DNA from: Clostridia bacterium
GTDB taxonomy: Bacteria > Bacillota > Clostridia > Christensenellales > Aristaeellaceae
Assembly (NCBI GenBank): GCA_017509255.1
Contig: JAFWQA010000002.1
Span: 148,351-212,350 of the forward strand
Length of the DNA stretch: 64,000 nucleotides
Reading direction: 5' to 3'
Shown here: positions 46,767 through 63,405 of the stretch, one piece after another
How the letters are laid out: each line of letters starts with the position of its first letter
Numbering within the stretch: position 1 is the first letter of the stretch
The notes under the pieces: generated by a model
What the model saw: the letters and a program-made list of their open reading frames with translations, nothing else
What the model was told of the DNA's origin: nothing
Databases searched by the model: none
Program-made: the position numbers and the translations under genes

Positions 46767-47498
46767 ATGGGGAAAAACGTGAATGAGCTGCTTATCCGGG
46801 GACTGAAGGTGGACTGGGGCGAGATCGCCCCGGACAGCTATCTGCGAAGGATCGAAGCCATCCAAAAAATAAACGCGCTTGATTTTCACAGGCGCGTGAC
46901 CTTCTTTGTCGGGGAAAACGGCAGCGGCAAATCCACGCTGCTGGAGGCCATGGCGGTCTCCGCCGGCTTCAACCCGGAGGGCGGCACCTACAACTACCGC
47001 TTTTCCACCCGGGATTCCCACTCGGAACTGTACGGCGCCATGAGCCTGATCCGCAGCCCGGGACGGCCGAAATGGGGGTATTTCCTGCGGGCCGAAAGCT
47101 TCTATAACGTGGCCACGGCAGAGGAGGAATACTCCCGGCTGGGCGGCGTCCCGCGCGGGTACCATCTGAAATCCCACGGGGAGAGCTTCCTGGCCACGGC
47201 GCAGGACAATTTCCGCGGCGGCGGGCTGTATTTCCTGGATGAGCCGGAGGCGGCCCTGTCCCCGCAGCGGCAGCTGACCCTGATCGTGGAGATCGCGCGC
47301 TGCGTGAAGGAGAACGCGCAGTTCTTCATCGTCACCCATTCCCCGATCCTGCTGGGGATCCCGGACGCGGAGATCCTCTCCTTTGACGGCGGGCCGATCC
47401 ATCCGGTCAGCTATGAGGAGACGGACAGCTACCGCATTACGGAGATGTTCCTCCGCGGCCGGGAGCAGCTGCTGAAAAGGCTGCTGGAGGAGGATTAA
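46767..47498 (+). CDS. Small ABC-type AAA ATPase
   Basis: 243 residues from ATG 46767, but GTG 46779 has a better-spaced GGAGATGGGG and may be the true start. Walker A is GENGSGKST (49-57), the Q region AESFYN, a degenerate signature, Walker B GGLYFLDEPEAALSP and the H-loop VTHSP. This is the stand-alone soluble AAA_21/AAA_23 type that resembles RecF/OLD ATPases, not a transporter. Its role is unknown. The stop overlaps the convergent GH5 stop by 4 bases. Confidence 0.88.
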   Translation: MGKNVNELLIRGLKVDWGEIAPDSYLRRIEAIQKINALDFHRRVTFFVGENGSGKSTLLEAMAVSAGFNPEGGTYNYRFSTRDSHSELYGAMSLIRSPGRPKWGYFLRAESFYNVATAEEEYSRLGGVPRGYHLKSHGESFLATAQDNFRGGGLYFLDEPEAALSPQRQLTLIVEIARCVKENAQFFIVTHSPILLGIPDAEILSFDGGPIHPVSYEETDSYRITEMFLRGREQLLKRLLEED

Positions 47499-48702: not shown

Positions 48703-49518
48703 ATGTACGGAGCGATCCTGGGGGACATGATCGGAGCCCCCTATGAATTTGACCGGGGAAAGAAAGTCAAGGAATTCCCGCTTTTCGGCCGGAGAAGCGG
48801 GTATACGGACGATTCCGTGATGACAATCGCCGTGGCGGACGCCCTTATGGCAGTACGGGAGAGCGGCGCGGAGGAGGACCCGGACGCCGTGCGCGAAGCG
48901 CTCGTCGCCGCGATGCGGGACTGGGGGCACCGCTATCCGGACGCGGGCTACGGCGGGCGGTTTTACGGCTGGCTGCGCGCGGAGAACCCGCAGCCCTACA
49001 ACAGCTGGGGCAATGGCTCAGCCATGCGCGTTTCTCCTGCCGGCTGGCTGTATCCCACGCTGGAGAAGACCCGGGCCATGGCCCGACTGACCGCGGACGT
49101 GACCCACAACCACCCGGAGGGCATCCGCGGCGCGGAAGCGGCGGCGGGCGCCATCTTCCTGGCCCGCACGGGGCACACGAAGGAGGAGATCCGGGACTAC
49201 GCCGTCCGGGAGATCGGGTATGATCTGTCCCGCACCTGCGACGAGATCCGCCCGGGCTATCACCATGTGGAAAGCTGCCAGCAGACCGTGCCGGAGGCGC
49301 TGACCGCCTTCCTGGAGGGGAATGACTTTGAGGACGTGATCCGCACAGCGGTCTCCCTCGGCGGGGACTGCGATACGCTCACCTGCATCGCCGGCGGCAT
49401 CGCGGAGGCCTTCTACGGCGTTCCGGAGGAGCTGAAGGCGGAATGCCGCGCCCGCGTGGAACCGGACATGCTGGAGGTGCTGGACCGGTTTGACAGGGTG
49501 AGGATCCCGAGAGTATAA
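48703..49518 (+). CDS. ADP-ribosylglycohydrolase family protein
   Basis: 271 residues, near the family norm. Start ATG 48703 with AAAGGAGGT 10 bases before. Metal-binding motifs are ILGDMIGAPYE (residues 5-15), YTDDS (34-38) and SLGGDCDT (about 221-228), which coordinate two Mg2+ ions at the ADP-ribose site. It removes ADP-ribose from proteins or small molecules. The next large gene encodes a likely NAD+-cleaving TIR domain, so the two could be connected, though they are separate transcripts. Confidence 0.9.
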   Translation: MYGAILGDMIGAPYEFDRGKKVKEFPLFGRRSGYTDDSVMTIAVADALMAVRESGAEEDPDAVREALVAAMRDWGHRYPDAGYGGRFYGWLRAENPQPYNSWGNGSAMRVSPAGWLYPTLEKTRAMARLTADVTHNHPEGIRGAEAAAGAIFLARTGHTKEEIRDYAVREIGYDLSRTCDEIRPGYHHVESCQQTVPEALTAFLEGNDFEDVIRTAVSLGGDCDTLTCIAGGIAEAFYGVPEELKAECRARVEPDMLEVLDRFDRVRIPRV

Positions 49519-49784: not shown

Positions 49785-49862
49785 GGGGATCAGAAGCCTG
49801 TTTTGTCCGGAACGGAAGAAATTTTCATCTTTTCAGCGGACTGTCATCGCAGCCGGCCTCCG

Positions 49863-49891
49863 TTGACAGTTTGTATATCCTGCGGTATATT
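49863..49891 (+). promoter_or_regulatory. Promoter of the leader RNA/TIR operon
   Basis: TTGACA (49863-49868), 17-base spacer and TATATT (49886-49891). The inverted pair ACTGTCA (49840-49846) and TGACAGT (49864-49870) overlaps the -35 and could be an operator. Confidence 0.8.
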
Positions 49892-49897
49892 GTGTCT

Positions 49898-50024
49898 GAA
49901 AGCGGACTGTGGCGCGGCCTGGCCGTACAGGTGAGAGGCATTGCTGCCACTTGCAACCACAGGGGCTTTCTTTTTCGTGTCATTGTGTTGTCAGCGGGCC
50001 TGTATCCCGTTGACACTTTTTTTT
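49898..50024 (+). ncRNA. Structured RNA with terminator, upstream of the TIR operon
   Basis: The transcript from the promoter at 49863 would start almost exactly on a closing stem: AAAGC and CTGTGG (49899-49912) pair with CCACAG and GCTTT (49956-49972 region). Inside are CGGC-CTG-GCCG and CAGGTG with CACTTG, i.e. a three-way junction. Downstream the hairpin at 49989-50024 ends in eight T. The layout (junction closed by P1, then a terminator before the coding region) is that of a riboswitch or an independent small RNA of about 126 bases. I recognise no known class. Confidence 0.5.
49989..50024 (+). terminator. Terminator in the TIR operon leader
   Basis: TGTCAGCGGG (49989-49998) pairs with CCCGTTGACA (50006-50015), one G-T wobble, loop CCTGTAT, followed by eight T (50017-50024). 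Confidence 0.85.
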
Positions 50025-50036
50025 GCAGCGGGTAAA

Positions 50037-50150
50037 ATGACAGAAAAGAAAGAAAAGCCAACAGTTCTCATATACAGAAAACCGCGCGCGCGTACCGGAA
50101 AACAGAAAAACCTCCGCAGACAGCTCCAGAAAGGATGGAAGCAGACATGA
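50037..50150 (+). CDS. Small basic ORF translationally coupled to the TIR gene
   Basis: 37 residues from ATG 50037: starts MTEKKEKPTVLIYRKPRART and ends RRQLQKGWKQT, with about 14 Lys/Arg against 3 Glu. The stop overlaps the TIR start as ATGA, the form used for translational coupling. The same frame is open back to a TTG at 49941 behind AGGTGAGAGG, which would add a hydrophobic stretch and give 69 residues, but that would cross the terminator. No ribosome site of good quality precedes ATG 50037. Possible leader peptide or small partner protein. Confidence 0.4.
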   Translation: MTEKKEKPTVLIYRKPRARTGKQKNLRRQLQKGWKQT

Positions 50151-52921
50151 TCGACACTCAGTACAAAGCGTTTATCAGCTACCGCCATCAGAGCCCGGAC
50201 CAGGATATCGCCGTGCGGCTGCACCGGCAGATCGAGCGGTACACGGTCCCTTCCGCCCTGCGGAAGGACGGCGCGAAGCATCCCGGCAGGGTCTTCCGGG
50301 ATCAGGATGAGCTGCCACTGTCCCCGGACCTGGGTGAGGATATCGAGGCCGCGCTGGATCACAGCGAGTGGCTGATCTGCGTGTGCTCTCCGCGGTATCT
50401 GGAGAGCAGATGGTGTCTGCGGGAGGTGGAATACTTCCTGAAGCATCATGACCGGAACCGTGTGCTGCCCATCCTGGCGGAAGGGGAGCCGAAGGACGCG
50501 TTCCCGGACCTGCTGCTCTACGAGACAACGGAGGACGGGAAGAGGACGGAGCATGAGCCGCTGGCGGCGGACGTGCGGGCCGAAAGCGTTTCCGGGTCCA
50601 TGAAAAAGCTGCGGAAGGAAAAGCTGCGGATCCTCGCCCCGATGCTGGGCACGACCTTTGACGGGCTGTACCAGCGGCAGCGGAGACGGGCGCTGCGCAA
50701 CGTACTGGCCGGCGCGCTGGCGGCAGTGGCGGTTCTGGGCGGCTTCCTGGCTTACGCCCTGGTCCAGAACGGGAGGATCACCCGGCAGAACGAGCAGATC
50801 ACCGCGCAGAACGAGCAGATCAGCCGGCAGAACACCGAGCTGACGGAAAAGAATGAAAAGATCGAGGCGCAGAACACCGAGCTGACGGAAAAGAACGAAC
50901 AGATCGAAGCGCAGAACACCGAGCTGACGGAAAAGAATGAAAAGATCGAGGCGCAGAATACGGAGCTGACCGAGAAAAACGAGCAGATCACCGCGCAGAA
51001 CAAGCAGATCAGCGAGCAGAACGTGCGCATCGAGGAGGAACGGACCGCGGCCGCCCGGAATGAGTGCGACCTGCTGACGGAGAAATCCGTCTACTATTCC
51101 TCCATCAACCGGAAGCAGGAGGCGACCCGGCTGGCGCTGGAGGCGCTGGACGTGTCCGCGACCATCGACGGCTATGCCGATGAGCAGATCAAGGAAGCGC
51201 TGGCGGTCTCCTGCTTCATGGGGGACTTCGCCGTGGAATCCGAGCTGGACTTCCCGGGCTTCGTGAATTATGACCCAAAGTGCATTTTCTCCCCGGACGG
51301 GACAAGGATCGCCGTGGTGGACTCCCGGTCCGGGCTGACCCTCTGCGACGCCGCGACGGGCGGGCGGCTGTGGGTCTCGACGCCCTTCAGCCACGATATC
51401 TCCTCCGTCTGCTGGAAGGAGGACGGCACCCGGCTGGCGGTCACGGCCAAGTGGGGACATACGGTCTGCCTGATCGACGCGGCTACGGGCGAGCACCTGA
51501 AGGAATTCCATATCCCCTGGGCGCACAACGCCGTCTTTGACGGGGACGGCCTGATCATCGCCTTTGAACGGGGCCTGATCCGCTGGCAGCCGGACGTGAG
51601 CGACGAGAACTTTCCCTATGTGATGGAGAAGGAGCCGGACCAGCACTCCACCTCCAGGACCCTGCTGGACGGCCGGTTCATCACCTGGTGCGACCTGAAT
51701 CCCGCGGGCCAGAAGATCTATTTCCGCAACAATACCGACGGGAAGATCTATGTGATGGAGCCGGGCGGCACAAGCCTGGTCACCGGCTATACCCTGTCGC
51801 CGGACGGGAAGTGGATGTACGCGCATCAGTACGACCGGGGCCTGGTGATGAACCTGGAAACCGATGAGGTCCGGTGGGACATCCAGATGGAAAAGGGCAC
51901 CTATGACGGGCTGGACGGCTGCAGTCCTGTCTGGACCGGGGACGTGATCCTGGACTGCGGGTATGCCTATAACGCCCTGACCGGCGAGGTGCTGTACACC
52001 ACCGGCAATGAGACCGTCGCAGCCGTTTCGCCGGACGGGGAGTATTTCGCTTCCGCCACGGCCATCTACCGCGTCCGGGACGGCAGCTGGTACGCGGACG
52101 TGCCCGGAACCCTCCGGGGAATCAGCCCCGCCGGGGACCGCGCGGTGGTCTACCAGGGAGTGGAATACAGCCGGGGCGTTCCCGGGAACCCGGACGCGGT
52201 CATGGCCCGGAGGCAGAAGGCGTACGTGGAGCTGTATCCGGGCAACGGCAGCCAGTACACCGTGGAGAAATATGAAGGCACACTGCTGGACGTGCCGGAC
52301 TGGACGGATCCGAAGGTGGAGGAGGGCACCATCCTGGGCTTCAATGACCCGTACGGATCGAACACCATGGGCTACATTCAGTCCAAAGGCCTCTTCAGCC
52401 CGGACGGCCGGTTCTATCTGGTCACCAACCTCGGGGCGTATATTCCCTTCTACGACCTGGAAAAGGGCAATGAGCCGATCGCCCGCGTGTATGATTTCAG
52501 CGTCGGTGACCATGTGGAGGCGATCGACGCGAGCTTCTCCCCGGACAGCCGCCTCGTGGCCGTTGCCGGCGCGGCCGGGCACATCGCCGTCTATGAGCTG
52601 GAGACCGGCAGCATGGTCCGCTCCTTTACCGACACCTATCTGGCCCATTCCCTGTCCGAGGTCAAATTCAACCGGAGCGGGAACTACCTGATGGCGGCGG
52701 ACTTCAGGCGGAGCAGCTTCCGCGTCTACTCCGTCACCAACGGGCAGACGCTGTACATCATCCACGCCGTGAAGGAAGTGGAATCCTGGGGCTTTGACGA
52801 AAAGACCGGGGACGCCGTGCTGGTCTACACCGACGGCAGCGCCCTGATCCACCGGATGTTCGAGGACCGGGAGGAGCTGCTGAGCTACGCGCGGAGCATC
52901 AGCGAAAGCAGCTCCCGCTGA
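50147..52921 (+). CDS. TIR - membrane helix - coiled coil - beta-propeller protein
   Basis: 924 residues from ATG 50147 (AAAGGATGGAAG upstream; ATG 50135 sits on the ribosome site). The TIR domain (5-125) has AFISYRH, VFRDQDELPLSPDL and SRWCLREVEYF; E93 in WCLRE matches the catalytic Glu of NAD+-cleaving TIRs. One membrane helix lies at about 184-206. Next is a long coiled coil (208-300) of 14-residue QNTELTEKNEKIEA repeats, a short helical piece (305-352), and a WD40-like propeller (about 360-900; FSPDGTRIAV, LSPDGKWMYA, FSPDSRLVAV). So TIR is inside and the propeller outside. It should sense something outside and trigger NAD+ loss or signalling inside. Homologues with this plan are common in Clostridia, but no function is known to me. 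Confidence 0.85.
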   Translation: MIDTQYKAFISYRHQSPDQDIAVRLHRQIERYTVPSALRKDGAKHPGRVFRDQDELPLSPDLGEDIEAALDHSEWLICVCSPRYLESRWCLREVEYFLKHHDRNRVLPILAEGEPKDAFPDLLLYETTEDGKRTEHEPLAADVRAESVSGSMKKLRKEKLRILAPMLGTTFDGLYQRQRRRALRNVLAGALAAVAVLGGFLAYALVQNGRITRQNEQITAQNEQISRQNTELTEKNEKIEAQNTELTEKNEQIEAQNTELTEKNEKIEAQNTELTEKNEQITAQNKQISEQNVRIEEERTAAARNECDLLTEKSVYYSSINRKQEATRLALEALDVSATIDGYADEQIKEALAVSCFMGDFAVESELDFPGFVNYDPKCIFSPDGTRIAVVDSRSGLTLCDAATGGRLWVSTPFSHDISSVCWKEDGTRLAVTAKWGHTVCLIDAATGEHLKEFHIPWAHNAVFDGDGLIIAFERGLIRWQPDVSDENFPYVMEKEPDQHSTSRTLLDGRFITWCDLNPAGQKIYFRNNTDGKIYVMEPGGTSLVTGYTLSPDGKWMYAHQYDRGLVMNLETDEVRWDIQMEKGTYDGLDGCSPVWTGDVILDCGYAYNALTGEVLYTTGNETVAAVSPDGEYFASATAIYRVRDGSWYADVPGTLRGISPAGDRAVVYQGVEYSRGVPGNPDAVMARRQKAYVELYPGNGSQYTVEKYEGTLLDVPDWTDPKVEEGTILGFNDPYGSNTMGYIQSKGLFSPDGRFYLVTNLGAYIPFYDLEKGNEPIARVYDFSVGDHVEAIDASFSPDSRLVAVAGAAGHIAVYELETGSMVRSFTDTYLAHSLSEVKFNRSGNYLMAADFRRSSFRVYSVTNGQTLYIIHAVKEVESWGFDEKTGDAVLVYTDGSALIHRMFEDREELLSYARSISESSSR
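50786..51030 (+). repeat. 21/42-base tandem repeats coding for the coiled coil
   Basis: Two 21-base units (50786-50827), then four 42-base units at 50828, 50870, 50912 and 50954, each 14 residues, and degenerate units to 51030. Units 1 and 3 are identical. Each 42-base unit adds exactly four helical turns, so copy-number change keeps the frame and alters only linker length. Confidence 0.85.
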
Positions 52922-52965
52922 CACCCGAAAAAGAGAAAAAGGACGATACCAAAGGAGGGCGGAGC

Positions 52966-53634
52966 ATGTTCAAATTCTGGGGAGACGGGTCGGAGACCGC
53001 GAAGGAGCAGATCCGGCAGATCACTGTACGCAGCACGGAAAACTTCAACTGGACCTTCATCTTTATTCTCGCGGTGGTTTTCTATGTTTACTGGTCGGAG
53101 ATCCGTAAGAAGGAATGGCACGCGGTGTGGGCGGGCCTGGCGCTTTACGGGGTGCACTGGCTGTACGAGATCGCCAACGCCGTGATCGCGAAGCTGTCCG
53201 GCTATCCGCTGTGGGCCGTCAGCAACGGCTCCACCACCTTCATCCTGCTGGTCGGCGTGTGCTGGGAGCTGTCCATGATGTTTTCCCTGGCAGGCATCAT
53301 TTCCTTCAAGATGCTGCCGGACGACCGGAGCAAAAGGTATTTCGCCAAAGGGAAGTTCAAGGGCATCAGCTGCAGGCTGACGGGCGCGGTCGGGATGGCG
53401 CTGCTCTTTGCCCTGGTGGAATCCTTCCTGGCCGCGACGAGCAACCGGAGCTTCATCTGGGTGTATCCCTGGTGGGGCGTGCTGCCGGTCTTCATCACGA
53501 CCTATATCCCGTTCTTCCTGGCCTCCAACTATGTGCCGGACCTGCCGGCAAAGAAGCGCAGCGCCTTCCTGATCACCGAATGGGCGCTGGTGGCGGTGCT
53601 GCTGGCCGCGCTGATCCCGCTGGGGATCATCTGA
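52966..53634 (+). CDS. Multi-pass membrane protein of the TIR operon
   Basis: 222 residues, start ATG 52966 with AAAGGAGGGCGG upstream, 44 bases after the TIR gene. About six membrane segments from residue 28 on. The first 27 residues are polar and probably cytoplasmic; a loop DRSKRYFAKGKFKGIS is basic. No family recognised. Its place suggests it is co-expressed with TIR and may be its target, a regulator or a pore. Confidence 0.7.
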   Translation: MFKFWGDGSETAKEQIRQITVRSTENFNWTFIFILAVVFYVYWSEIRKKEWHAVWAGLALYGVHWLYEIANAVIAKLSGYPLWAVSNGSTTFILLVGVCWELSMMFSLAGIISFKMLPDDRSKRYFAKGKFKGISCRLTGAVGMALLFALVESFLAATSNRSFIWVYPWWGVLPVFITTYIPFFLASNYVPDLPAKKRSAFLITEWALVAVLLAALIPLGII

Positions 53635-53636
53635 GT

Positions 53637-54059
53637 ATGCAGACCGCTTCGTATATCGCTTTGGCCGTCCTCTGGATCTGGTTCCTGGGCGCTGTCACGA
53701 CCTATAGGATCGGGAAATGGCTGCTGGTGGAGGGCGAAGGCCTCCGCAGCGTGGAGTTCGGGATGCTCGCCGCCTTCACCGCGGCGTGCGTCTGGTACGC
53801 GCTTTCCCCCGCGGCCGGCGGATGGGTGCTGCTGGGCCTTCTGTGCCTGTGGCTGGCCGCGCAGTTCTTCAGCCACTGGTATTACACCCTTTTCGGCGCC
53901 TCCGAGAAGAAACTGCGGGGCTACAACGAGTGGTTCAGGGGCACCCTGCGCCTCTTCCCCGCAAGCGATACCCGCCTCATCCCGGACCTGTATCACATCA
54001 TTCTGCATCTGCTGCTTGTGATCAATATGGTATTGATCCTGACCGTGATGATACAGTGA
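53637..54059 (+). CDS. Small membrane protein of the TIR operon
   Basis: 140 residues from ATG 53637, 2 bases after the previous stop. Three to four membrane segments (6-25, 42-58, 61-85, 118-138). A polar loop contains EKKLRGYNEWFRGTLRLFP. No family recognised. Tightly coupled to the preceding membrane gene, so the two probably form one complex. Confidence 0.7.
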   Translation: MQTASYIALAVLWIWFLGAVTTYRIGKWLLVEGEGLRSVEFGMLAAFTAACVWYALSPAAGGWVLLGLLCLWLAAQFFSHWYYTLFGASEKKLRGYNEWFRGTLRLFPASDTRLIPDLYHIILHLLLVINMVLILTVMIQ

Positions 54060-60258: not shown

Positions 60259-63200
60259 ATGTTAAAACCTGGATTATATGAGCAAATAATAAGTCAGGGC
60301 GTATCGGATGAATTGGCATCTATTCCAGATCAATGCAAAAGTATAGAGAAGATAGATTCAGAAGAAGCTCCGAAGGCTTTGGCTGAGTATTTGGCAAGTG
60401 TTACCCGAAAAGCCTTGGAAAATATTTCTGAAAATACTGACGAGAAGAAAAAAACGGAAAGACAGGTCGAACTTGTCAACCGTATGTTAAAAGTGCTTAC
60501 AGAACAGGAAATAACAAAATCAAACCAAATGGTTGAAAATCAGGCTCAAATGTTACTTCATATACTACAAAGAAATGATCCCAGATTAGTGAGTGGAGAA
60601 AAAATAAAGAGCTTACCTCGCCCTGAAACTCCCATGTCTTCCAGCAGCTTATTCACCGGGGCTGTCCATGAACCGCAAATGTTTGCTGAATTACAAAAAG
60701 AAATAGTCAGTGCGGATAGAATCGATTTGCTGGTTTCTTTTATCAAGTGGAGTGGACTACGAATGCTTTATCCGGCGTTAAAAGAGTTTACGGATAAAGG
60801 GGGACTCCTGAGAGTTATAACCACGTCCTATATGGGCGCAACGGATATCAAAGCGATTGATGAACTGGAGAAACTGCAGAACACAGAGATCAAAGTTACC
60901 TATGACACGAAGCGTACGCGCCTTCATGCAAAGACATATGTTTTTTATCGTGATACAGGTTTCACAACTGCTTATATCGGTTCGTCCAATTTGTCCAATG
61001 CTGCTATGTCAAGTGGACTTGAGTGGAACTTGAAACTAACTGCAGCTGATCAACCGGACACTTTGAGAAAAATATATGTTTCATTTGAGAGTTATTGGAA
61101 TTCCGACGATTTTGAAACATATACGGAAGATAGCCATAATCGTCTGGAAGAAGCACTTAGAAGTGAAAAACACCCAACAAGCAACCCTACCTTTTTGTTT
61201 GATGTAAGGCCTTACCCGTATCAGCAGATGATCCTTGATCAGTTACGGGCAGAAAGAGAAATCAGGGGATATTATCGTAATCTGATAGTCGCTGCAACAG
61301 GTACAGGAAAAACAGTTATTGCTGCATTAGATTATCGTGGCTGGAGAAAAGCACATCCGAAGGAAAATAGCAGGTTACTTTTCATTGCACATCGGGAAGA
61401 GATTCTTAAACAAAGTTTGGTAACCTTCCAAGGCGTTTTGAAAGATCCGAACTTCGGAGAGCTCTGGGTGGGAAACAACAAACCCAGCAATCTGGATAAT
61501 CTGTTTGTTTCGGTGCAAACAATGAATTCACAGGAGCTTTGGAAACGGCTTCCTGTGGACTATTATCAATACATTGTCGTAGATGAAACACATCATGCTG
61601 CTGCTGATTCTTATGCAGAAGCCTTGGAAACTTTTAAGCCAAAGGTTCTGCTTGGCCTAACAGCTACTCCCGAACGTATGGACGGGAAAAGCATCCTTCA
61701 GTTTTTTGATAATCGGATTGCAGCAGAAATCAGACTTCCGGAAGCAATTGACAGGAAGCTGCTTTGCCCATTTCAATACTTCGGTGTAGCTGATACAATT
61801 GATTTGCAGGACCTTAAATGGGCGAGAGGCGGATATGACAAGACAGAATTAAACAACATTTACACCCTTTCAGGAAAGATTTCACAGCAACGCGCAGAGC
61901 ATGTGATGCAAAATCTGATTCGATATACAACAGATATAGATGATGTAAAGGCTTTGGGTTTTTGCGTGTCTATCGAACATGCACATTTCATGGCAGATTG
62001 GTTTAATGAACATGGGGTTGCAGCTACAGCATTAGATAGTCATTCTTCAGATGAGGAACGAAACTCAACAAAGAAACGTCTTGTCGATGGAGAAATCAAG
62101 ATCGTTTTTGTTGTGGATTTGTACAATGAAGGTGTTGATATCCCAGAAGTAAATACAGTTCTGTTTCTAAGACCTACGGAATCTCTGACGATTTTCTTGC
62201 AGCAGCTCGGTCGTGGTCTTCGCTTATGTGAAGGTAAGGATTGTCTGACGGTATTGGATTTCATAGGTGCTGCAAATAAACGATATAATTTTATCGATAA
62301 ATTTGCTTCAATTCTGGATGATGATCGACACAGTGTCAGGGAAGAAATAGAGAAAGGATTCCCGGGGACCCCAAAGGGTTGTTATATCCAGCTGGAAAAG
62401 AAAGCAGCAAGTATTATTCTAGACAATATAAAGCAAAACTTTGGCCAGCGGGAAGAAATGATTTATCGCCTAAGAACATTTAAGGAGGATAGCGGGAAAG
62501 ATCCCACATTCAGAAATTTTCTGGATTGGTATCATTTAACTCCGGGAGACATATATAGCAAAAAAATAACCTTTTCGAGAATGTGTGAAAAGGCAGAATT
62601 AATAGATCGTTTTAATGAACCGATAGAAGAAAAACTAAATAATACGATGTATCGTTTGGCAGCATTTAACTCAAGACGATGGATTGAATTCTTATTGGCT
62701 ATTCTTCCGAATCTGGACAATACAAAATTTGATGAGATTCCTCATCTGGAACAGCAAATGCTCCGTATGTTTTATATTACCATTTGGGATGAATATCCTG
62801 AAAACTTAGATAGTGACGATACTCTACAAAATCTTTATTCACTTTCAGACAGCCCGATTCTTCTTGAGGAAATCCAGGAAATGCTTCGGTATCAATATGA
62901 TCATATTGATTTTATTGATTCAACCACGGAACTGGGGTATGACTGCCCGCTGGATGTGCATTGTTCATATACTCAGCGTCAACTACTTGCTGCATTGGAT
63001 TATAAAAACTTCAGTTCAATGCGGCAGGGTGTTCTGTACTTGAAGGATAAAAAAACAGATATTTTCCTGATCACACTAAACAAAAGCGATAAAGATTTTT
63101 CGGAATCGACAATGTATGATGATTATGCACTTAATCAAAGGGAGTTTCATTGGCAAAGCCAATCAACGACAACGCCTGAATCACCTACTGGACAAAGATA

Positions 63201-63405
63201 TATTCATCATGCCGAATCGGGAAATAAGGTTTTGCTTTTCGTGCGCGAGTTTAAAAAAGACAAGCTGGGGACGTCGCCTTATACATATCTTGGGCCGGCA
63301 ACTTATGTAAGTCATATGGGAAGTAGGCCGATGAGCATCATATGGAAACTTGAAAAGGAGATACCGGCTAAGTATCTGAGAAAAGTACAACAGGTTATGG
63401 GCTAA
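60259..63405 (+). CDS. SauUSI-like type IV restriction enzyme (PLD nuclease - helicase - DUF3427)
   Basis: 1048 residues, ATG 60259 with GGAG 8 bases upstream. A PLD nuclease domain (about 130-290) holds LHAKTYVF (H223, K225) and IGSSNLS. A superfamily 2 helicase follows: Walker A AATGTGKT (345-352), DETH (442-445), LTATPER, and a second domain with QQLGRGLR. The last third fits DUF3427, the recognition domain in SauUSI, which cuts DNA with 5-methyl- or hydroxymethylcytosine. An extra helical piece of about 120 residues is at the N-terminus. AT-rich codon use unlike all neighbours marks recent transfer. Function in defence is inferred from the family. Confidence 0.88.
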   Translation: MLKPGLYEQIISQGVSDELASIPDQCKSIEKIDSEEAPKALAEYLASVTRKALENISENTDEKKKTERQVELVNRMLKVLTEQEITKSNQMVENQAQMLLHILQRNDPRLVSGEKIKSLPRPETPMSSSSLFTGAVHEPQMFAELQKEIVSADRIDLLVSFIKWSGLRMLYPALKEFTDKGGLLRVITTSYMGATDIKAIDELEKLQNTEIKVTYDTKRTRLHAKTYVFYRDTGFTTAYIGSSNLSNAAMSSGLEWNLKLTAADQPDTLRKIYVSFESYWNSDDFETYTEDSHNRLEEALRSEKHPTSNPTFLFDVRPYPYQQMILDQLRAEREIRGYYRNLIVAATGTGKTVIAALDYRGWRKAHPKENSRLLFIAHREEILKQSLVTFQGVLKDPNFGELWVGNNKPSNLDNLFVSVQTMNSQELWKRLPVDYYQYIVVDETHHAAADSYAEALETFKPKVLLGLTATPERMDGKSILQFFDNRIAAEIRLPEAIDRKLLCPFQYFGVADTIDLQDLKWARGGYDKTELNNIYTLSGKISQQRAEHVMQNLIRYTTDIDDVKALGFCVSIEHAHFMADWFNEHGVAATALDSHSSDEERNSTKKRLVDGEIKIVFVVDLYNEGVDIPEVNTVLFLRPTESLTIFLQQLGRGLRLCEGKDCLTVLDFIGAANKRYNFIDKFASILDDDRHSVREEIEKGFPGTPKGCYIQLEKKAASIILDNIKQNFGQREEMIYRLRTFKEDSGKDPTFRNFLDWYHLTPGDIYSKKITFSRMCEKAELIDRFNEPIEEKLNNTMYRLAAFNSRRWIEFLLAILPNLDNTKFDEIPHLEQQMLRMFYITIWDEYPENLDSDDTLQNLYSLSDSPILLEEIQEMLRYQYDHIDFIDSTTELGYDCPLDVHCSYTQRQLLAALDYKNFSSMRQGVLYLKDKKTDIFLITLNKSDKDFSESTMYDDYALNQREFHWQSQSTTTPESPTGQRYIHHAESGNKVLLFVREFKKDKLGTSPYTYLGPATYVSHMGSRPMSIIWKLEKEIPAKYLRKVQQVMG

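Follow-up and report, generated by a model that had tools for sequence, protein, structure and literature searches.

Animal Toll-like receptors are built from an outside sensor of leucine-rich repeats (LRR), one membrane helix and a cytoplasmic TIR domain. In the bacterial Thoeris system, the TIR protein (ThsB), which is paired with ThsA, is cytosolic. By comparative genomics, Burroughs et al. in 2015 reportedly predicted further networks, termed TIR-SLATT and SLOG/RyR. Here, gene A of a Clostridia bacterium is compared with these systems. The gene lies in a 64,000-nucleotide stretch of assembly GCA_017509255.1 (contig JAFWQA010000002.1, positions 148,351 to 212,350 of the forward strand), called the window below, and encodes a TIR domain, a membrane helix, a coiled coil and a propeller in one protein, which is best called a membrane-receptor form of TIR-based ADP-ribose signalling. 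Like a Toll-like receptor, this protein has one membrane helix and, by prediction, an outside sensor and a cytoplasmic TIR domain; it differs in that the TIR domain is N-terminal, the sensor is a propeller instead of an LRR, the catalytic-type glutamate is kept and the protein is bacterial.

The literature connects several of the domains discussed here with ADP-ribose. TIR-SLATT pairs are discussed in two papers, in whose available parts SLATT is predicted to be an ADP-ribose-regulated membrane effector encoded beside TIR genes (PMC9503650, PMC7159879). RyR-domain phage proteins have been reported, in the available part of a 2026 preprint, to cleave or sequester the 2'/3' cyclic ADP-ribose (cADPR) made by Thoeris TIRs (PMC13232231). 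With Thoeris, A shares a TIR enzyme likely acting on nicotinamide adenine dinucleotide (NAD+) and, in some relatives, a SLOG-type neighbour, and RyR proteins act on Thoeris signals according to the same preprint; it differs in being membrane-anchored with a sensor predicted outside. The neighbours of A are an ADP-ribosylglycohydrolase gene, a 62-amino-acid (aa) open reading frame (ORF) and the two genes B and C. None of A, B, C and the gene upstream of A matches ThsA, in a scan that left the 62-aa ORF beside A outside. The Pfam ThsB_TIR profile stays below its cut-off on A (19.3 vs 21.2 bits), and the PADLOC TIR matches are weak and partial. By these tests, with no ThsA found beside it and the ThsB profile below cut-off, A falls outside Thoeris. 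It is not a Toll receptor either. Its likeness to the predicted TIR-SLATT/SLOG/RyR networks consists in SLOG, SLATT (two membrane helices) and RyR-type neighbours of TIR in part of the A relatives. In contrast to these networks, the TIR domain of A sits on a receptor with membrane helix, coil and propeller, the partner is an HD-RyR protein plus SLOG-SLATT or TrkA_N-RyR, and the window locus has no adjacent partner.

Gene A occupies 50147-52921 (+) and encodes 924 aa; the start could instead be the in-frame ATG at 50135, giving 928 aa. B follows after 44 bases and C after another 2, all on one strand, so that the gene order and gaps described in a previous sequence-only reading of this DNA are confirmed by coordinates. 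The features are as follows.

50147..52921, + strand: gene A, encoding the protein with TIR domain, membrane helix, coiled coil and propeller (alternative start 50135)
50147..50680, + strand: TIR domain, residues 1-178 (codon of E93 at 50423-50425)
50690..50773, + strand: single membrane helix, residues 182-209, rich in lysine and arginine (K/R) on the TIR side (from hydrophobicity and alignment)
50774..51046, + strand: coiled-coil stalk, residues 210-300 (21/42-bp DNA repeats; anchors Y203 to A302 = 99 = 15 + 12 x 7 residues)
51047..51226, + strand: conserved segment, residues 301-360 (AARNECDLLTEKS...LALEAL), from alignments; probably helical
51254..52900, + strand: WD40-like propeller region, residues ~370-918 (from profile matches)
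52966..53634, + strand: gene B, 222-aa membrane protein with a conserved family of its own, which in the examined relatives does not adjoin A
53637..54059, + strand: gene C, 140-aa membrane protein of a separate conserved family (four cysteines of its relatives missing here)

The TIR domain of A matches Pfam TIR_2 (1.7e-13; 51.5 bits vs a cut-off of 28) and TIR (8.5e-8; 32.6 vs 21.3 bits). Searching solved structures with phmmer, E93 in the motif WCLRE was found to pair with the glutamate of the flax L6 plant TIR (WCLME) and with that of the CRISPR-associated Cat1 TIR (WCWDE). A glutamate occupies this position in 41/41 aligned proteins, the window protein included, and we take it to be the catalytic residue of NADase TIRs; from its presence A is predicted to be a TIR NADase. 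A single hydrophobic helix spans residues 182-209 (Kyte-Doolittle 2.14); behind it comes a coiled coil that is encoded by a tandem DNA array of 21/42-bp units. From residue ~370 to ~890, several WD40/propeller models match stretches of the protein (THOC3 propeller 2.7e-16, ANAPC4_WD40 2.1e-11). The significant profile matches of A are to TIR, propeller and coiled-coil-type models. The intact TIR with E93, the one membrane helix, the repeat-built coil and the WD40-like propeller proposed by the sequence-only reading all hold, as does the absence of an NTPase, none being present among these matches or among those listed for B and C. Relatives support all three genes as coding, at 68-69% overall for the two nearest to A, up to 79% for B and up to 64% for C.

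The orientation of A in the membrane was predicted from its charges. The side of a membrane helix that is rich in K/R is the cytoplasmic one (the positive-inside rule). In 41/41 aligned proteins the helix has more K/R on its TIR side than on the other, with a mean of 6.5 vs 2.8, and the top-scoring 19-residue helix reaches 1.5 or more in 39/41 of them, the lowest score being 1.41. By this rule, the bias places the TIR domain inside and the propeller outside. The transmembrane receptor proposed earlier, with this same orientation, is thus supported as a prediction, both by the charge bias and by a stalk that keeps helical phase.

The stalk of A belongs to a series of lengths that grows in heptads. 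Stalk length was taken as the number of residues between the alignment columns of Y203 in the membrane helix and A302 in the first helix after the stalk. Of 98 clustered proteins, 85 remained after removal of 13 that were identical across residues 21-400, and 77 after removal of a further 8 with 95% identity or more. The length from membrane helix to sensor equals 15+7k in 84/85 of the non-identical proteins and in 76/77 of the thinned set, with k up to 30. Among the 77 proteins, 17 distinct lengths occur between 15 and 225, of which 16 are in phase; the minimal stalk of 15 is found in 35 proteins, and 41 of the 42 longer ones are in phase. The sole length outside the series is 26, or 15+11. 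Besides seven, helical phase is kept by eleven residues (11/3), so this exception is counted as phase-preserving. With anchors placed outside the coil (R177 to A333), 72/76 proteins are in phase, and 80/84 before thinning. On a tree of the TIR domain and adjacent helix, at least 31 length changes are required vs one phase change (32 and one in the fuller set). As a control, 13 other intervals along the protein were measured, and their distinct lengths scatter over residue classes. An alignment-free heptad check was workable for 25 proteins, of which 22 share one class. The rule is common to different coil sequences, including QNEEI-type coils, EEQRRA-type coils and the Heliobacterium linkers, which show little DNA repetition.

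A comparable rule has been described in sensor histidine kinases. In the available part of a study on photoreceptor histidine kinases, linker lengths that step in heptads are taken as the mark of an uninterrupted coiled coil that transmits signals (PMC6798134). The stalk of A resembles these linkers in its steps of seven and differs in that the output is a TIR domain and not a kinase, that 0-30 heptads are added and that the linker is predicted to lie outside the membrane. In A, the heptad-stepped stalk points to a receptor that is locked in phase and probably dimeric. Against this interpretation weighs that 21-bp repeats, by slippage, would likewise shift lengths in sevens. If slippage were the whole explanation, the rule would be a mutational footprint, uninformative on signalling. 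Clear 21/42-bp DNA repeats are indeed found in A, L139 and others, where slippage surely contributes to the stalk lengths of A and L139, and most extended linkers show DNA self-similarity above a codon-shuffled control. However, the rule spans different coil types, including linkers with self-similarity near the control (such as L204 0.44 vs 0.36, L190 0.46 vs 0.42, L171 0.45 vs 0.39, L187 0.37 vs 0.31); its one exception, +11, is itself the other step that preserves phase; and no array has to exist beforehand for an extension of 15 residues to 22 or 29. A pure slippage footprint is therefore judged unlikely. As slippage does contribute and most extended linkers retain self-similarity, the heptad rule is strong but imperfect evidence for selection on phase.

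To collect relatives of A, 84,980 species genomes were scanned with a degenerate pattern, which gave 532 stretches. Relatives of A are encoded in 481/532 of them, and the best 80 relatives were kept. The architecture of A is that of a large family and is not rare; it is found mostly in gut Clostridia, the best 80 coming by record title mostly from rumen and gut Clostridia, Lachnospiraceae, Oscillospiraceae and Erysipelotrichaceae. Genes in relatives were called by custom ORF callers and not by a trained gene finder. The A-propeller subfamily is present in 14/300 genomes of the same taxonomic family; TIR genes per genome were scored from 2 candidates each, an undercount, and the propeller-only search is cleaner. 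The own genome holds a paralogue of A on contig C46, with the TIR part 67% identical and the remainder 41%. Among the relatives, the sensor part is more variable than the TIR part, and one of them (L110) adjoins a BspA-type LRR protein. Plasmid records gave 7 relatives, in the TIR part only (best 42.7%), and no relatives were found in IMG/VR by the A1 alignment. A TIR-membrane helix-coiled coil-propeller family of this kind was not described in the literature searched, which covered titles and abstract openings and left subscription papers mostly outside.

The neighbours of these relatives point to a possible signal. In more than 5 A-type loci, the recurrent neighbour clusters are an HD-RyR protein and a SLOG-SLATT protein, plus ABC and MATE transporters. 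The HD-RyR protein (~670 aa) has HD-like motifs and a C-terminal RyR-like piece; RyR is the top Pfam match for 5/5 such pieces, with E values between 1.6e-4 and 0.2, and stays under the gathering score. The SLOG-SLATT protein (~531 aa) has SLOG (YAcAr) and DUF4231/SLATT-type regions; one of two DUF4231 matches is above cut-off and the rest are below. Against solved structures the HD-RyR profile found no match, and two weak matches of the SLOG-SLATT profile, the best to KtrA (E 0.021), were judged to be chance. Around the best 80 TIR genes, HD-RyR was found in 12 loci and SLOG-SLATT in 9; either was found in 17, and next to the TIR gene in 14. Neither occurred in 40 control loci centred on B or C, which hold about half as much DNA.

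The association extends to whole genomes. HD-RyR is present in 31/300 genomes and SLOG-SLATT in 19/300, 16 of those with HD-RyR. Among the A-propeller genomes, 9/14 carry HD-RyR where 1.45 are expected (p 6e-7, with related genomes counted as independent). Within the genus, counted on the 36 members listed, which may not be all, 6/6 A-propeller genomes carry it (expected 1.67, p 1e-4, kinship ignored). In the own genome, HD-RyR lies on contig C52, 13 bp after a membrane TrkA_N-RyR protein (L249:10122-11783). This protein matches RyR above cut-off (1.2e-7) and TrkA_N just below it (1.2e-4), with membrane helices recognised by eye, and is a candidate ligand-gated channel-like protein on the basis of these domains. 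NCBIfam gave nothing for HD-RyR or for the TrkA_N-RyR protein. In 8/26 HD-RyR loci (L250, L256, L257, L258, L266, L268, L269, L272), other TIR or TIR-like proteins are encoded at or near HD-RyR, confirmed by Pfam in L250, L256 and L266 and by likeness or blast in the others. A protein of ~740 aa with two TIR-like stretches followed by tetratricopeptide repeats is seen at or near HD-RyR in L256 (8973-11195), L266 (9015-11249), L257, L258, L268 and L269; it was checked by Pfam in L256 and L266 and may be a further TIR partner for the RyR module.

The RyR link is considered meaningful because RyR proteins of phages act on cADPR (PMC13232231) and SLATT is predicted to be ADP-ribose-regulated (PMC9503650, PMC7159879), as far as the available parts of these sources go. 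The RyR-, SLOG- and SLATT-type genes beside part of the A family thus point to ADP-ribose signalling. Several observations weigh against this. Neither partner is seen in the flanking DNA covered of 63/80 TIR loci, nor in the flanks of the closest A relatives (L139, L140, L100); the genomes of L140 and L100 carry both HD-RyR and SLOG-SLATT elsewhere. No HD-RyR match was found in 5/14 A-propeller genomes, many genomes being incomplete. In the own genome (74% complete) SLOG-SLATT was not found, the RyR pair is unlinked to A, and no member of either cluster lies within the window, so none adjoins A. In the HD-RyR protein, the HD and RyR calls are below Pfam gathering, with RyR reaching only E 0.2 in one of five pieces; most SLOG/SLATT calls are below cut-off; and the p values count related species separately.

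These same observations leave room for A to act alone, as a stand-alone NAD+-depleting receptor for abortive infection or stress, with the RyR/SLOG genes reflecting shared defence loci. The 63/80 loci and the closest relatives without a constant neighbour would fit this, TIR domains can deplete NAD+ according to the available part of PMC9503650, and a type IV restriction enzyme-like gene lies ~6 kb downstream of C. However, beyond the ABC and MATE transporters only the HD-RyR and SLOG-SLATT clusters are listed in more than 5 loci, the partner adjoins the TIR gene in 14/17 loci, and the co-occurrence holds at the genome level too. A stand-alone receptor is rather unlikely, though it should be kept in mind. 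A role outside of defence, in which A would respond to the gut environment or the cell envelope (polysaccharides or neighbours, for instance) with TIR as a messenger synthase, is quite unlikely. In its favour, the upstream genes of the window look ordinary metabolic by eye, the sensor varies more than the TIR domain and L110 stands beside an LRR protein. Against it, the patchy presence of the A propeller and the other TIR or TIR-like proteins at or near 8/26 HD-RyR loci look more like a conflict-type gene pool.

The sequence-only reading had joined A with B and C in one system, with the two small membrane proteins as channels or regulators of the TIR receptor. Both B and C contain several hydrophobic segments and have no family above cut-off in Pfam, NCBIfam or PADLOC, in agreement with their description as membrane proteins of no known family. 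The arrangement favours a joint system: the three genes share one strand with gaps of 44 and 2 bases, the + strand carries no terminator-like site from A to C, and its promoter-like sites are found only upstream of A. Co-transcription of the three genes is plausible here from these signals.

The conserved association was examined in other genomes. B is present in 23/300 genomes of the same family (its own, one weak and one partial match included) and C in 27/300 (its own and a few weak ones included). Neighbourhoods were covered for 20 of the 23 B genomes, the own, weak and partial matches being left out, and for 20 of the 27 C genomes. The 101 A-type loci comprise 20 from family genomes, the own paralogue and the best 80; some are duplicated, giving ~81 distinct proteins. 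A, B and C were compared with all loci by tblastn, which as a positive control found each query in every locus of its own group. In alignment A5, row L024 was ignored (wrong frame or strand). A or C was found in 0/20 B loci, A or B in 0/20 C loci, and B or C in 0/101 A-type loci, and the clustering of called genes agrees. The genes are also scattered within genomes. G218 carries an A-type gene, B and C on three separate contigs; in G259, C is 26 kb from an A-like TIR gene and B lies on another contig; in G091, the A-type gene and B are 300 kb apart; and in G163, G132 and G185 (one- or two-contig genomes) B and C are more than 1 Mb apart.

Over the whole family, co-occurrence appears enriched for A-B (p 0.016), for B-C (p 0.002) and for the broader TIR set with C (p 0.016), in favour of a joint system. 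Within the genus, again on the 36 members listed, A and B are found together in 4 members (expected 2.67, p 0.23), A and C in 2 (expected 1.83, p 0.61) and B and C in 7 (expected 4.89, p 0.12). Within the genus, where the family-wide A-B and B-C enrichment disappears, the co-occurrence is at chance. In the relatives examined, TIR-membrane helix-WD40 genes are therefore not regularly followed by the B and C families, and the three-gene system failed the test of conserved association. B and C look like unrelated neighbours, orphan membrane proteins that each have a conserved family of their own and are not tied to A.

C has one peculiarity in the window. Four cysteines kept in all 20 C relatives examined (positions 19, 45, 79, 99) are A, A, S and W in the window copy, and a fifth, mostly conserved cysteine is likewise missing. 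A metal or disulfide site may have been lost as a set in this copy; the difference from 20/20 relatives could also mean a new role within a system with A. With the evidence of loci and genomes against it, a three-gene system is very unlikely, and RyR-domain proteins encoded elsewhere are likelier partners of A than B and C. A phage origin of B and C was considered and rejected, with no match in phage records and no IMG/VR relatives.

From these data, A is read as an outside-sensing TIR receptor that makes an ADP-ribose-type messenger, which is read by RyR/SLOG membrane proteins; we give this reading a probability of about 0.5. Computation shows the architecture, the charge bias of the topology, the intact glutamate, the heptad stalk, the lack of B/C association in the relatives examined and, for part of the family, the link with RyR/SLOG genes; we infer dimerisation, the messenger, what the RyR proteins do and in which direction the signal runs. 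The C-terminal propeller would sense a ligand or a surface change outside the cell, and the parallel coiled coil, in phase with the membrane helix, would carry the change inward, probably through a dimer that rotates or repacks. Once activated, the TIR domain in the cytoplasm may convert NAD+ to an ADP-ribose-type signal or simply deplete NAD+. RyR/SLOG membrane proteins (SLOG-SLATT, TrkA_N-RyR) would respond to the signal, and HD-RyR may erase or tune it.

Upstream of A, two palindromes of the same pattern were found.

49842..49868, no strand assigned: palindrome TGTCA-N17-TGACA, 27 bp (right arm holds the TTGACA of the promoter-like site 49863-49891)
49989..50015, no strand assigned: second palindrome TGTCA-N17-TGACA, 27 bp (holds the TTGACA of the promoter-like site 50010-50038; its hairpin with T run also scores as terminator-like)

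These are the only exact matches of the pattern in the 2.5-Mb own genome, with a third carrying one mismatch at C47:61237. None was found upstream (up to 600 bp) of 97 other clustered family members, duplicates included. The palindromes may be operators, the binding sites of a dedicated regulator. The promoter-like sites upstream of A number 2 vs a mean of 1.3 in shuffles and are thus weak. Rfam gave 0 matches at the gathering threshold in the window, which also has 0 tRNAs.

The surroundings of the locus hold other genes of possible interest. An ADP-ribosylglycohydrolase family gene (48703-49518; PF03747, 4e-39) lies upstream of A, and no cluster of this family is listed among the recurrent neighbours of A relatives. 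The type IV restriction-like gene (60259-63405) encodes a PLD + helicase + DUF3427 protein of 1048 aa that matches the PADLOC type IV methyl-directed restriction enzyme (4e-238). It starts ~6 kb downstream of C, near the contig end, in a stretch that is abruptly AT-rich (~40% GC vs ~60%). An AAA_21-type ATPase of 243 aa (46767-47498) has PADLOC similarity to several defence ATPases but could well be an ordinary ABC-type ATPase. The upstream genes of the window, recognised by eye, resemble ordinary metabolism (transporter permeases, pyruvate kinase, others).

With these results, a false three-gene system of A, B and C is removed from consideration. The stalk rule gives a sharp prediction, that steps of 7 or 11 residues work and others do not, and with it a testable model of outside-in TIR activation. 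The RyR link would tie bacterial TIR signalling to a domain reported, in the available part of the preprint, to act on cADPR-type signals in phage proteins (PMC13232231). A stronger form of the reading, which we hold only tentatively and regard as somewhat doubtful, sees A as a bacterial Toll-like counterpart, in which the outward propeller and a phase-selected coil of 0-30 heptads would drive the TIR domain to make a cADPR-type messenger that is read or erased by RyR membrane proteins. If true, prokaryotes would possess a cADPR-RyR signalling axis that responds to triggers outside the cell.

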